33,704 nucleotides of DNA. Origin: a virus. The position numbers were made by a program, and so were the translations under genes. How positions within the stretch are numbered: the stretch's first letter is position 1; every line of letters begins with the position of its first letter. Shown here piece after piece: positions 7,890 through 29,974 of the stretch. The DNA is taken from positions 1 to 33,704 of the IMG/VR virus record IMGVR_UViG_3300045738_001357; one strand, 5' to 3'. Below the pieces are notes generated by a model. The model did no database searches and was not told where the DNA came from. It saw only the letters and a list, made by a program, of their open reading frames with translations.

Positions 7890-9923
7890 ATGTCTGTCGG
7901 CCCCGTTAGCCTGAACGGCGTTGGCTACGCAATCAGACCCTTTAAGGGTGGCGAGTGGGTTAAGCGTGAGCAGATCGAGATATTCGCCCCCGTGGTCAGC
8001 CCTGGCGGTCAGCAGCGCCAGGAACGGATAACCAGCTACTCCGCCCGCACCCTCGGTCCCTTCACGGGCGGTTTTGGCCGCAACCGCATCCTTGCTACCG
8101 ACGCGGACGAGCCGGAAGAGTATCGACGCTTCCGCGACGCCACCGCCGACACCCGCTGGCGGACCGCCCGAGCCCCCATCCTAGAGACCGACACAAACCA
8201 AGGGGGCCTAGAGGTAATCGGCGCCTCGGTGCAGTGGCGTGGGGCACTCTGGGCACTCTGGACAGACGACACTGGTACTGACGTCGTTGCCAAAACCCTG
8301 AGTGGAACTACCTGGGGTGGTGGTGGAAACGTCAACATCCAGACGAATGCCAATGAGCCAACAAGCCTCTTCCCTTACCGTCAGTGGCTTGTTGCCCTGG
8401 GTGCTGGCGGGGCCGTCCTGACGGATCACTGGACACGATACTCGGAAGACGGCATCACATGGAGCACCCCTGCGGGCGGCGAGATCACGGCTGGGCTGCT
8501 GACAAGCGATGTGGAAGTGAATGCCTTCCAGTTTGATGGGCGGCTAGCCGAGATAGGGGGCGAGCTTGTCGCGGCGGTCTACCACGAGGACCGGCGAACC
8601 ATTACATTCTTCTCCGCCACCGATATGACGGCCAACCCCGTCTGGACCGACGAGGCAATCGATATCCCGTCGAACTTCGGGGTGAGCGGTATCGCGGTCT
8701 ACCCTGACATTGACGGGGCGGACAAGCTGTACGCTGCGACAGATACGGGTGTCTGGATGATCGATACGGCCCCGGCAACGTGGACATTCCGGCACATCCT
8801 TCCCATGCCTTTCCACGGAGATAACGGCATCCACATGACGGTACATGATGGCAAGCTCTGGGTGCCCTCTAGCAGAGGAGAGGACGGGGCTTTTGCGATG
8901 GTCACGCTGGAGGTTGCTGGGGACTCCAGGATAGTGACTTCTGGTCTTGGGCTTGATGCTGGCGACGGCGTGGTGGCCGAGATGCTCGGTTCGGTCTATT
9001 GGATGATATCCGCAGGGGAACGGCTGTACGTGGCGGTAGGTGGTAGTGGGGCATCGCGGAATGGCCGCATTCTCTGCATGATGAAGGACGAGCAGGGTCG
9101 CTACAGCTGGCACTCAGTGCGCCGGTACGATACGGCAGCCGAGCGGGCCGAGTGGGTCGATATAGACGGTAACGATATCTGCTACTCCGTTCGCACGGGC
9201 GGGAATGTCTCGGACGTGAAGCAGCTGCAGAACGGAGACATTGATCCGGAGTCGGGCATCTCGATTACGCGGGAGACATCTGGCTATATCGACCTGCCCT
9301 ACATTGATGGTGGGATGCCTACCACCCCGGCCGTCTGGGTGCGTGTGGGGGTTGACGCCTCCGGTCTGACGGCCGGGGTGGACGGCTCTGGGGTCAACGG
9401 CACCGACGAGTACATTGACGTTACTCATGGGGTGGACAACGCCGTCAGGACGACGACCGATCTGGGCGACATCCTATCGGGCCAGCTCGTTGTGGACTAC
9501 GCCAGTGGCGCCGGTGCTGACGGTCGGAACGATGGGCTCCGGCTGGTACTGAACCGTGGGGCCACGAATACCAACACGCCGCAGTTGCGGTCGGTCGAGA
9601 TGGACTTCCTCAAGCAGCCTGGCGTTCTTGACCGCTACATCTTCCAGGTCGACCTGGAGGCGACAGTCGCGTTGGCGGGTAACGATGGGCACGGGAACGT
9701 CGAGGGCGTCATCACGACCCTTGAGGCGGCCCGGGATCTCGGCACGCTGCCCACCTTCATGTACGCCAACCTGAACGGCGGCACGGACATCCATGTTAAG
9801 GTGCGGGATATCCGGTGGGGCGAGAGCATTGAGGTCGAGGGCGGTGATCGCCCGACGGCACCGAGCGCAGACGCCCAGCGTAAAGGGATTGCGGTCGTGA
9901 CGGTAGAGCGTGTTATAAGATGA
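7890..9923 (+). CDS. beta-propeller tail protein, nozzle-like (putative)
   Basis: A 677-residue protein with repeated blade-like units from about residue 110 to 430 (for example WRGALWALWTDD, GRLAEIGGELVAAVY, GADKLYAATDTGVWMI, GERLYVAVGGSG). This is the repeat spacing of a beta-propeller, followed by a C-terminal beta region. Short-tailed phage nozzles such as T7 gp12 also carry a propeller platform. It follows the adaptor-like gene with a one-base gap and overlaps the next gene by ATGA. It could equally be a tail-side receptor or capsule-contact protein. Confidence 0.5.
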   Translation: MSVGPVSLNGVGYAIRPFKGGEWVKREQIEIFAPVVSPGGQQRQERITSYSARTLGPFTGGFGRNRILATDADEPEEYRRFRDATADTRWRTARAPILETDTNQGGLEVIGASVQWRGALWALWTDDTGTDVVAKTLSGTTWGGGGNVNIQTNANEPTSLFPYRQWLVALGAGGAVLTDHWTRYSEDGITWSTPAGGEITAGLLTSDVEVNAFQFDGRLAEIGGELVAAVYHEDRRTITFFSATDMTANPVWTDEAIDIPSNFGVSGIAVYPDIDGADKLYAATDTGVWMIDTAPATWTFRHILPMPFHGDNGIHMTVHDGKLWVPSSRGEDGAFAMVTLEVAGDSRIVTSGLGLDAGDGVVAEMLGSVYWMISAGERLYVAVGGSGASRNGRILCMMKDEQGRYSWHSVRRYDTAAERAEWVDIDGNDICYSVRTGGNVSDVKQLQNGDIDPESGISITRETSGYIDLPYIDGGMPTTPAVWVRVGVDASGLTAGVDGSGVNGTDEYIDVTHGVDNAVRTTTDLGDILSGQLVVDYASGAGADGRNDGLRLVLNRGATNTNTPQLRSVEMDFLKQPGVLDRYIFQVDLEATVALAGNDGHGNVEGVITTLEAARDLGTLPTFMYANLNGGTDIHVKVRDIRWGESIEVEGGDRPTAPSADAQRKGIAVVTVERVIR

Positions 9924-18797: not shown

Positions 18798-19036
18798 TTC
18801 CCACGGTGGGTGTTCAGCAGGGCCATTCTCAGATAGGCAATTCCCATTTGATTCCCACTTTTTGCGCATAGGTGGGTGAACCATAAATGGGAATTGAATG
18901 GGAATTGGGAACCCGGGAACCGCAGTACCATGCGGTGGAGCCAATTCCCACGGGGGTGATTCTCAACATCTAGATGCGCCAGGGAAGTGGGTCTAATTCC
19001 CACTTTCCTGTCTCTATAGGGTGGGAATTGGGAATT
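18796..19036. repeat. iteron-like array, candidate replication origin
   Basis: Eight exact copies of AATTCCCA or its complement TGGGAATT occur in 241 bases: as AATTCCCA at 18796, 18839, 18943 and 18995; as TGGGAATT at 18888, 18899, 19022 and 19029. A ninth site at 18850 is GATTCCCA. Extended consensus YAATTCCCAY. Between them lie ACCGCA/TGCGGT arms (18919-18924, 18931-18936) and the direct repeat GGGAACC (18907, 18914). The array starts on the helicase stop codon and fills an otherwise empty intergenic stretch. Repeated initiator sites next to replication genes are typical of phage and plasmid origins; an operator array is the alternative. Confidence 0.72.
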
Positions 19037-19071
19037 AGGTACGAATTGGAACCGAGGTCAGGATCACAATA

Positions 19072-19206
19072 ATGGTATCTTCATCAACGATGTGCCCCCG
19101 CTGCGACACCCCGCTGACGCTCTCGCCTTACACTGGCCAGGAGCCGTATTGTGTCGTCACTTTGGGACATACCAACGAGCGCCCCCGGTCTTTAAGTGGT
19201 CAATAA
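19072..19206 (+). CDS. possible 44-residue zinc-knuckle ORF
   Basis: An ATG frame with MCPRCDTPLTLSPYTGQEPYC near its start. This looks like the first half of a zinc ribbon of the kind also seen in the gene at 19394 (CPRCG ... EPLCPICG), but the second CxxCG is replaced by CVVTLG. It overlaps the convergent gene at 19157 by 50 bases and has only a distant AGG. It may be a decayed zinc ribbon. Low confidence. Confidence 0.3.
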   Translation: MVSSSTMCPRCDTPLTLSPYTGQEPYCVVTLGHTNERPRSLSGQ

Positions 19207-26594: not shown

Positions 26595-26630
26595 TTGGAC
26601 ATGGGTAAGGTGACGTGATAGAGTCTAGGT
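26595..26630 (+). promoter_or_regulatory. leaderless-type promoter for the RHH gene
   Basis: TTGGAC (26595-26600), 18 bases, TAGAGT (26619-26624), 6 bases, then ATG. With this spacing transcription would begin at or next to the A of the ATG. No ribosome site is present. The geometry is the same as before the small terminase gene. Confidence 0.55.
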
Positions 26631-27005
26631 ATGTCAAGAGAAATAGGCATGCGGGTATCGGACGAGTTCTACGGTGAATTGGCAGAGCTCGCGGAGTTGA
26701 ACAAGATGAGCGTTGCCGGTCAGGCGCGAATGCTAATCGCGGGTGCCCTCCGGTTAGCAGATAAGGCTTTCATGGCCCAGGATGCGCCGCCTAGGGTGCT
26801 ACGGGACCGTGGGCCTGCTGACAGCCAGTACGACGCCCGGTCAGGGGTTGACCAGTACATGAGAGACCGTGGTGCCGGCAGCGCCCAGCCCACGACGCTC
26901 CTAGACGGCGCCGTAGCGCCTGACCTATCGCTGCTCGGTAAGGCGCCAGACGATCAAGTCAGAGTATTCCAACAGGGGCGCCCAAAGCCCACTGGTAGCC
27001 AATAA
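26631..27005 (+). CDS. ribbon-helix-helix regulator (putative)
   Basis: A 124-residue protein whose first 42 residues fit an Arc/CopG-type ribbon-helix-helix: strand IGMRV, helix DEFYGELAELAELNK, turn, helix SVAGQARMLIAGALRL. The remaining 80 residues are polar and disordered-looking. It faces the - strand operon promoter across a shared control region, so it may repress that promoter and itself. It appears to be translated from a leaderless message. Confidence 0.62.
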   Translation: MSREIGMRVSDEFYGELAELAELNKMSVAGQARMLIAGALRLADKAFMAQDAPPRVLRDRGPADSQYDARSGVDQYMRDRGAGSAQPTTLLDGAVAPDLSLLGKAPDDQVRVFQQGRPKPTGSQ

Positions 27006-27386
27006 CAGGATAAACTGGCGCGCTGGTACATTGGCCGTCAATGCCAATGGCGCCGTCATATAGATGGCGTGGGTTACTGGGAACAGACCTCGTAACGAGG
27101 AAGGGGGCCACACGGCACAGGGGCCGTCACTGGCGCAGGTTGACCCAGTAGCGGGGTTGTAGGCATGGGCCAATACACCAACCTCCCCGTAAGCCCAGAT
27201 ATTCAGCAATCACCCCCAGGGGATTCTATTCCCCTTTGACCACCCTGAGCTATACCGTCCCGATGAACATAAGACACAGTCCAACGCTACGCCGCGTCGC
27301 CGGCCGTAGGCATAAGGCGACTGACCCAAGGGGTAGCGCTTGGACGACAAGGGCAAATACCACTCTCCCCTGCCCCCACGTAAGAT

Positions 27387-27452
27387 GGGGAGACGCTACA
27401 CCAAAGAGTTTGGCCCTATCCTACGGGGGCCAAAATGGCGTAGCGTCTCCCC
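27387..27452. repeat. two-tier inverted repeat (13 bp plus 8 bp stems)
   Basis: GGGGAGACGCTAC (27387-27399) is perfectly complementary to GTAGCGTCTCCCC (27440-27452). Inside, TTTGGCCC (27409-27416) pairs with GGGCCAAA (27427-27434) around a 10-base loop. This is the longest perfect inverted repeat noticed in the window. There is no T run. It could be a terminase recognition structure, an operator pair or a protective RNA fold. Confidence 0.75.
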
Positions 27453-27472
27453 AGACGGGGCGAAGCAACGGA

Positions 27473-27482
27473 GGGGGGGGGG
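27473..27482 (+). repeat. run of ten G
   Basis: G10 at 27473-27482, with GGGG at 27457 region upstream and GGG downstream, which could form a G-quadruplex. It lies between the large inverted repeat and the small-terminase promoter. Homopolymer length may be affected by sequencing error. Confidence 0.6.
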
Positions 27483-27495
27483 AAGGGCTCAAGAC

Positions 27496-27531
27496 TTGAC
27501 GGCGCCTTGACCAGCAGGGTAGGCTCTCACT
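27496..27531 (+). promoter_or_regulatory. leaderless-type promoter for the terminase operon
   Basis: TTGACG (27496-27501), 18 bases, TAGGCT (27520-27525), 6 bases, then ATG. Transcription should begin at the start codon, in keeping with the lack of a ribosome site. Same layout as at 26595-26630. Confidence 0.58.
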
Positions 27532-28020
27532 ATGTCAGGTATACAGAACCGTTACGGGCTTACAAAGAAACAAGAGGCGTTTGCCCATGCTGTGGTCCGT
27601 ACCGGTAACGCCTCCGAAGCCTATCGCGAGACCTACGATACGAAGGCAAATGGTAACGGTCTAAGCGTGGATGCCTTCCACGTTCTTCACGACCCTAACG
27701 TCACACTAAGAGTGGCTACTTTGGCTAAAAGAGTAGCTAGAGCCGCAGAAGCCGATACCGTTCTCGTGCTCTCTAGACTCGTTGAGGAAAGCGACCCATC
27801 CAACGACTACGCTGATAGCCCTTCAGCGCGTGTTAAGGCCCTGGAAGTGCTGGCCAAGGTCCAAGGCATGCTCATAGATCGCGCTGAGATAGCCGTAGCC
27901 GGTCGCATTGAGCACGTTCACCCGGAGATGGCCAACCTGAGCGAAAGGGAGTTACGCGCCTTAGCTGGATGGCCCCAGGCGCTCGGAGAAGGTAAGGCCG
28001 ATGGTGACCAGACGCAATGA
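27532..28020 (+). CDS. terS: terminase small subunit
   Basis: A 162-residue protein of the Terminase_2 type. The N-terminal helix-turn-helix region LTKKQEAFAHAVVRTGNASEAYRETY (10-35) is the usual DNA-recognition part, followed by helices (VATLAKRVARAAEADTVLVLSRLVEE; RVKALEVLAKVQGM) for ring assembly. It recognises phage DNA and hands it to the large subunit. It probably binds in the non-coding region just upstream. The next recognisable packaging gene is the large subunit at 28448. Confidence 0.85.
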   Translation: MSGIQNRYGLTKKQEAFAHAVVRTGNASEAYRETYDTKANGNGLSVDAFHVLHDPNVTLRVATLAKRVARAAEADTVLVLSRLVEESDPSNDYADSPSARVKALEVLAKVQGMLIDRAEIAVAGRIEHVHPEMANLSERELRALAGWPQALGEGKADGDQTQ

Positions 28021-28230: not shown

Positions 28231-28476
28231 ATGAACATCGAGGACATCGAGGCTGTGGAGTATGAGAGGGGCGACATCGTGAGTGAGCCCTGGGGGGTTG
28301 AGGTGGAGTGCCGAACGACAGTAAATGCTGTTCGCTGTTACGTTGCCGACCCAAGGTGCAGGACCGAGCACTATGAAGAGCACCTGTGCACGTATGATGA
28401 GGAGATCCACCCTGAGCTCTGGCACTTTGAGACAAGGGACGAAGGAGATGGGATCACCAGCATTGCCTGCCCCTAA
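28231..28476 (+). CDS. small acidic Cys/His protein between terminase genes
   Basis: An 81-residue protein (MNIEDIEAVEYERGDIVSEPWG...) with Cys and His residues spread through it (CRTTVNAVRCY; CRTEHYEEHLC; HPELWHF). The start is uncertain: an ATG at 28153 gives 107 residues with an unlikely N-terminus, and neither has a good ribosome site. It overlaps the large terminase start by 29 bases. Function unknown. Confidence 0.5.
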   Translation: MNIEDIEAVEYERGDIVSEPWGVEVECRTTVNAVRCYVADPRCRTEHYEEHLCTYDEEIHPELWHFETRDEGDGITSIACP

Positions 28477-29974
28477 CGCCGTACCTCCTACCCTGACCCC
28501 TGCATCTTCTCCAGAACCCTCTGCCGCCGAGAAGGCGATTAAGGGGAGGGCGGAGTTTGCCCTCTGCGGCCAGTCATTTCTCAACCTCCTCAAGGTGATC
28601 TTCATCATGGAGCCGCCGCCCCTGCGCGGTAAGGTCCGTTTTGAGGACTGGGCCTATCTCATTGAGGTCGCCCGAGCCTTTACTGAGCATCGCCAGCTTG
28701 TGGTCCTGAAGGCGCGGCAGGTCGGGTTCTCCTGGCTCGTCGCGGCCTATGTCGTGTGGTGGCTGCGCTGGCGGGAGGGGTCGGTCGTTCTGTTGCTGTC
28801 CAAGGGGCAGGTTGAGGCTTATGCCCTGTTGCAGAAGGTCAAGTTCATCTACCGTAATCTGCCCCAAGAGTGGCAGCTTCCGCTGACAACCGACTCCCGG
28901 TCCGAGATCCAGATAGGCGCCAACTTCTCCAAGGTGATCGCGTTGCCCTCCACGGAGGACGCAGGCCGTGGGGAGACCTCCTCGTTGGTTGTGCAGGACG
29001 AAGGCGACTTTCACGATCATCTGGAGCAGAACCTCATTGCGGTCGAGCCCACCGTCTCGGCCGGCGGTCAGATCATCGTTGGCTCCACGTCGAATAAGAA
29101 GGTAATGATAAGCCCGTTCAAGGAGATATACCGCAACGCTCCTCAGAACGGCTGGCATCGTATCTTCATCCCCTGGCACGCTCGGCCTGGTCGGGATCAG
29201 GCGTGGTATGAGCGCACTCGCGCCTCCATCCCCGCCACCACCGATATGACCCCCGACCTCTATATGGAGCAGGAGTTCCCCGGGTCGGACTCCGAAGCCC
29301 TCGCGCCGTCTGCCGCTCTATCTGCCTTTACCCAGGCGTATTTGCGCGACATGGAACTCGATTGCCGAGAGCCCGTGAGGACCAATGGCCCTGTCAATAT
29401 CTACCGAGAGTGGCGCGTCGGGGGGCGCTATATGTGTGGCACCGACACTTCTCACGGGGTTGGCGCCGACTTCTCCGCGTCGGTGCTGATCGAGGCCCAC
29501 ACGGGCTATGTCGTGGCCGACATCCTGGATAACCTGCTGTCTCCCGATATGCTGGCGTGGCACACAATGCAGATGCTCGCCGAGTTCCGAAACCCCATCT
29601 GGGCCATTGAGGACAACGAGTGGGGCGAGATCACGATCAAGGCGGCCCGGGCGGAGCGCTATCCCAGGCTATATCACCGGCAGGACCGGCGCGGCGGTCG
29701 GTATGTCGGGTGGCACGCCGACGAGCGCTCTCGGTACAGCCTCTGGGCTGGCGTTATGGAGGCGATCCACTCCCGCGCCCTCACGGTGCCCAACCGCCGT
29801 GGTCTGGATCAGTTCAACTCCCTCATACGGAACCCGAAGAAGAATGGTAGGATAGAGGCCATGACAGGCGCCCACGACGACTACCCCACTGCCGTTGGGA
29901 TCGCGCTACAGGCCCGAGAGCAGGTACACAGCTCTGGCGGGAGAGCCACACCGGCCCTCCCAGCGAGGTGGTAG
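28448..29974 (+). CDS. terL: terminase large subunit
   Basis: A 508-residue packaging motor. ATPase part: the degenerate Walker A LKARQVGFSW (87-96), then SVVLLLSKGQ and Walker B LVVQDEGDF (180-188) with its catalytic Glu. RNase H-like nuclease part: D333 in CGTDTSHG, E388/D389 in WAIEDNEWG, and D477/D478 in GAHDDYPTA. The start is the ATG at 28448, placed after AAGGG; a frame reaching further upstream overlaps the previous gene and has no domain. It translocates DNA through the portal encoded three genes later. Confidence 0.9.
   Translation: MGSPALPAPNAVPPTLTPASSPEPSAAEKAIKGRAEFALCGQSFLNLLKVIFIMEPPPLRGKVRFEDWAYLIEVARAFTEHRQLVVLKARQVGFSWLVAAYVVWWLRWREGSVVLLLSKGQVEAYALLQKVKFIYRNLPQEWQLPLTTDSRSEIQIGANFSKVIALPSTEDAGRGETSSLVVQDEGDFHDHLEQNLIAVEPTVSAGGQIIVGSTSNKKVMISPFKEIYRNAPQNGWHRIFIPWHARPGRDQAWYERTRASIPATTDMTPDLYMEQEFPGSDSEALAPSAALSAFTQAYLRDMELDCREPVRTNGPVNIYREWRVGGRYMCGTDTSHGVGADFSASVLIEAHTGYVVADILDNLLSPDMLAWHTMQMLAEFRNPIWAIEDNEWGEITIKAARAERYPRLYHRQDRRGGRYVGWHADERSRYSLWAGVMEAIHSRALTVPNRRGLDQFNSLIRNPKKNGRIEAMTGAHDDYPTAVGIALQAREQVHSSGGRATPALPARW

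Follow-up and report, generated by a model that had tools for sequence, protein, structure and literature searches.

Directly ahead of its terminase small subunit gene (terS), the viral DNA studied here carries 526 bases (27006–27531) rich in inverted repeats, and the question raised by this locus is whether the stretch is a DNA packaging site, as a preliminary description had proposed, or something else. The window, by which we mean the whole 33,704-base stretch analysed, is one virus record without terminal repeats. On the evidence given below, an RNA gene not described before is a likelier reading of the spot than a site for DNA packaging.

The gap ahead of the terminase genes

The gap is bounded by an ORF at 26631–27005, which stops at 27005, and by the TerS gene, which begins at 27532; these ends, together with stops in all six frames (short stretches excepted), bear out the earlier description of a non-coding region ahead of the small terminase, and no ORF within 27006–27531 was selected by coding score. 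The accompanying view that the genome has almost no spare DNA is too strong, as a rough gene model shows other gaps of several hundred bases in the window. Eight inverted-repeat pairs of at least 7 nt lie in the gap, and the whole 526 nt fold better than all of 100 shuffles (z −5.1). Comparison of the gap region with phages or relatives at the DNA level gave nothing useful; the 17 bases 27017–27033 exactly match the opposite strand of L021, L023 and L031 at a place just past terS (E=0.08; loci fetched in this work carry the prefix L), which may be due to chance. The small protein encoded by 26631–27005 has a start that resembles, by eye, that of a ribbon-helix-helix DNA-binding protein, and it matched nothing in PHROG or Pfam.

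TerS is encoded at 27532–28020 on the + strand (PHROG_51, E=1.6e-14; a match to Pfam Terminase_2 falls slightly short of the cut-off at E=1.3e-4) and the large subunit, TerL, at 28463–29974 on the same strand (phrog_2, E=3e-20). The TerL start at 28463 was chosen by codon scoring in an ORF that opens at 28325, and most TerL relatives align from about residue 71 of that long ORF. The only closer relatives of the TerS protein are in L003 and L044, both of which are cut off at TerS. TerS types differ between the groups of loci defined below while TerL stays related, and TerS appears, as judged from these comparisons, to have been exchanged as a module. The TerS-like protein of L071, L087, L088, L197 and similar loci in group 2, with an N terminus such as PPWRKGQSGNPSGTP, is unlike that of the window.

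An RNA family found beside terminase genes

Relatives of the window's TerL with 39–60% identity were fetched from viral contigs, and six loci (L021, L023, L025, L026, L027 and L118, the last from a TerS search), which we call group 1, have a recognisably common non-coding stretch ahead of terS. A covariance model built from these six (R1) picked up further members among other TerL relatives, with E-values from 4e-8 to 0.03, which like those that follow are rough owing to a short calibration. One set of these members, group 2, was aligned with MAFFT in seven rows, and only group 2, not the window, went into a second model (R2). Run against the window with filters off, R2 gave a full-length match to 27024–27205 on the + strand (45.4 bits, E=3.2e-13), and the next-best place in the window scored 12.8 bits. 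The case for membership of the window rests on R2, because R1 alone did not find it. As R2 also matches L100, L065, L090 and the group 1 member L027, groups 1 and 2 can be treated as one family; weaker, probable members are L010 (E=0.003) and L041 (E=0.016), the latter having the TerL most identical to the window's. Among the matches listed for 671 kb of related loci and 388 kb from other phages, every one that reached 37.8 bits fits the family. No clear match came from several relatives whose neighbourhoods are complete, e.g. L012/L051, L015, L016, L045 and L049, and the RNA may have been lost there or have diverged too far. Family members lie on either side of the midpoint root of the TerL tree, where the labels need only three changes, in a clustering that is inflated by near-copies; the simplest reading is early presence in this phage group, then loss or divergence in some lines. 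GTDB genomes were searched for hosts, with TerL and the RNA core as queries, and gave nothing.

From sequence comparison, 27022–27207 on the + strand probably encodes a member of an undescribed family of structured non-coding RNAs of ~170–200 nt, whose place in one group of uncultured tailed phages is beside the terminase genes, across several lineages of TerL. The R2 match, the unconstrained fold and the pairs themselves point the same way, all 31 aligned pairs in the window being standard (29 Watson–Crick and two G-U).

Fold, compensation and the neighbouring hairpins

The helices of the window RNA, all on the + strand, make up a multi-branched architecture, common to the family, and are as follows. 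The closing stem P1 (27022–27025/27204–27207) comes from the fold, with the same GCTGG/TCAGC in L100, and is the weakest and least secure helix, being short and differing in its pairing among groups. P2 (27030–27035/27043–27048; inverted repeat, R2 and fold) is a 6-bp hairpin with a 7-nt loop, and P3 (27050–27057/27063–27070; R2 and fold) is a hairpin with an AUAUA loop, as in group 2 members and L100. P4 (27071–27073/27194–27196; alignment and fold) is GGG/CCC in the window, a compensated change from the GCG/CGC of its relatives. P4 leads into the long arm at 27075–27150, closed by P5 (27075–27081/27144–27150; inverted repeat, R2 and fold), which encloses P6 (27087–27090/27137–27140; R2); within this arm also lie the conserved core AACGAGGAAGGGGG and P7 (27112–27116/27123–27127), a local hairpin seen in the fold and outside the model alignment. 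The P8 hairpin (27151–27156/27185–27190; R2 and fold) is followed in the window by UAAGCCCA, the counterpart of UUAAUCGCA in group 2. An unconstrained minimum-free-energy fold of 27020–27212 recovered P1–P5, P7 and P8, the P6 region folding locally instead, and the unconstrained folds of the window and L100 are much alike in shape.

The RNA may extend further in the 3′ direction than modelled, as a stretch of the form TGGGAC...TACGT follows it in group 2. This stretch is conserved ~10–25 nt past the RNA in L076, L087, L118 and others, and in group 1 a stretch like it lies ahead of terS.

The fold is also supported by covariation. In the seven-row group 2 alignment 97% of the cells are paired and 15 of the 43 pairs changed on both sides, a figure reached in none of 500 shuffles; the signal is gone when partners are slid by one base. 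Across 17 members including the window, 40 of the 43 pairs changed on both sides with pairing kept, in an alignment biased towards the model to which it was fitted. These 17 members have 34 G-U cells against five A-C cells, and because the G-U cells would be mismatches on the opposite strand, what is under selection, we infer, is this strand in single-stranded form. Conservation of a pac or cos site as double-stranded DNA would be without strand polarity, which is not the pattern found.

The preliminary interpretation is partly supported, in that paired positions are conserved in relatives, but in another stretch: compensated pairing is present at 27022–27207, while the hairpin at 27387–27452 that the preliminary description had singled out has no counterpart in ~200 loci. 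This hairpin, B (27386–27453, +), lies outside the conserved RNA, 180 nt downstream. Its perfect 13-bp stem (27387–27399/27440–27452) is as first described and gains a T-A pair to reach 14 bp, its 18-nt arms being 94% complementary; the 8-bp stem nested within it (27409–27416/27427–27434) and the G10 run (27473–27482, +) are likewise present, the latter unremarkable at 60% GC (~0.4 expected by simple arithmetic). Hairpin B has the most extreme fold among 560 intervals along the genome (z −6.0). A perfect 14-bp stem with a loop of at most 100 nt was seen in one of 100 shuffles of the whole window, and the window contains one further 14-bp stem, at 9322–9381. A second two-part hairpin, A (27279–27345, +), shares with B the middle stem CGCTAC/GTAGCG, and the outer stems differ. 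Pattern searches of ~200 fetched loci found no counterpart of hairpin A, of hairpin B or of a similar pair, and a scan of viral contigs with the hairpin-arm pattern matched six contigs, none of them among the terminase-search results. On these sequence searches hairpin B looks specific to this phage, and A and B may represent one binding site present twice, or a phage-specific structure. The reading of hairpin B as an intrinsic terminator was rejected, as no T run follows it, and relaxed-threshold Rfam matches were chance ones only, to a microRNA family on hairpin B.

Possible roles and comparison with known phage RNAs

The best explanation overall, which we regard as probable, is that the window's RNA is a member of this undescribed family and works as a separate, trans-acting RNA with a protein partner; because its orientation relative to terS varies between lineages, such a stand-alone and probably trans-acting molecule is preferred to a leader of terS or to a pac site in double-stranded DNA. 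An RNA of ~190 nt would be made from its own promoter in relatives, and possibly cut from a longer transcript in the window phage. Its compact fold would present conserved unpaired segments, AACGAGG..GG.GG in the arm and UAA.CGCA after P8, to the protein partner, and the RNA would act in trans during infection. Because the RNA stays linked to terS while TerS type and orientation are exchanged, our tentative first candidate is a partner from packaging or another late stage; host RNA polymerase, a defence system and other host targets come after it, and even this candidate is by itself rather unlikely. The RNA lies close to terS in all lineages in which terS was seen, and this linkage alone makes a packaging role possible and an attractive guess. 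TerS/TerL motors are not known to need RNA, and it is unlikely that phages have in this family a second class of packaging RNA, unrelated to the first, acting in trans and working with such motors.

We consider it unlikely that the RNA is instead a cis-acting leader of the terminase or late operon that, for instance, regulates translation of terS or works as a put-like antitermination element. It does lie on the same strand as terS and just upstream of it in the window, L100 and group 1 (~30–330 nt: 30–50 nt in group 1, 170 nt in L100 and about 325 nt in the window, which thereby shares the family trait of a place beside terS/terL). A promoter motif, TGnTATAAT, lies upstream of the first (5′) hairpin in group 1, where the order TATAAT, RNA, terS looks like that of promoter, leader and gene, and in all of these phages a cis role is possible. 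At most group 2 loci, however, the RNA is divergent from terS, with its 5′ end ~50–100 nt from terS and the next clear leftward gene several hundred nt on, and a promoter motif, TTGCAA-17-TAnCCT, stands directly ahead of the model start; in L065 an opposite-strand gene intervenes between RNA and terS, and in L041 the probable member sits downstream of terS. In the window there is no clear promoter match just upstream of 27022, the nearest promoter-like site on the + strand being at 26596–26624, before the upstream gene.

A role unrelated to packaging, with the RNA placed here by chance and serving as a ribozyme or as a decoy that counters host defence or host RNA polymerase, is improbable. The conserved unpaired core would suit such a role, and type-P5 twister ribozymes (RF02684, above gathering score) are found upstream of terS in two relatives, L049 (984–1054, −) and L041 (1747–1798, −), but no Rfam ribozyme model matches the RNA, and a link to terS that lasts across several TerL lineages would need another reason.

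Very improbable, finally, is the original reading of the gap as a pac or cos site recognised by TerS: the gap lies directly before terS, its inverted repeats are strong, and pac sites occur in or near terS in several phages, but the strand-polar pairing, which double-stranded DNA leaves unexplained, and the promoters of the relatives indicate an RNA of one strand, the strong hairpin was not found in relatives, the RNA stays while the TerS type changes, and the contig is unbroken through the region, with its ends among structural genes.

With Rfam 15 at the gathering threshold, no family was found in the window or in 10 loci with members, and the RNA family had no match in Rfam, GenBank phages or GTDB. 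No description of it was found in the literature, which is weak evidence of novelty since literature coverage was incomplete. We know of few phage RNAs with such conservation beyond phi29 pRNA, tRNAs and the large ornate RNAs. Like phi29 pRNA, the stand-alone RNA that we favour is small and compact, with a variable sequence and a conserved fold, a likeness that would be functional only if it serves packaging; unlike pRNA, it has no covariance match to Rfam (the phi29 pRNA model gave no match up to E=10 in 26950–27600) and its phage has a classic TerS/TerL pair. The put RNAs of HK022 are likewise structured phage RNAs at the start of an operon, as the present RNA is in some lineages, but they are shorter and act only in cis, whereas the present RNA is on the same strand as terS in some lineages and divergent in others. 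The large bacterial and phage RNAs GOLLD, ROOL and OLE, whose structures have been described (PMC12286853), are also ornate structured non-coding RNAs; the present RNA differs in being ~190 nt long and matches none of the Rfam models. The marine phage-associated motifs manA, wcaG and PhotoRC-II, too, are structured RNAs, identified through comparative genomic work on marine metagenomes and cyanophages (PMC2864571), from which the present RNA differs in its lack of an Rfam match and in having terminase genes as neighbours.

The family is of interest as an Rfam-absent, strongly compensated RNA that recurs beside the terminase genes of varied phages and keeps this placement despite changes in TerS type and orientation. 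The family provides a ready model for finding the RNA in metatranscriptomes and cultured phages, and the question of RNA use by TerS/TerL phages becomes directly testable.

Two further observations concern individual loci. In L090 (1–1400), with TerL as the reference, TerS and the RNA have an orientation opposite to that in close relatives; the inversion is possibly real or possibly an assembly artefact, TerS being at the contig end. In the window, a second, weak R2 match at 18980–19082 (12.8 bits, E=0.006) covers only P2–P3 and the 3′ end, and adjoins other inverted repeats at 18838–18907.
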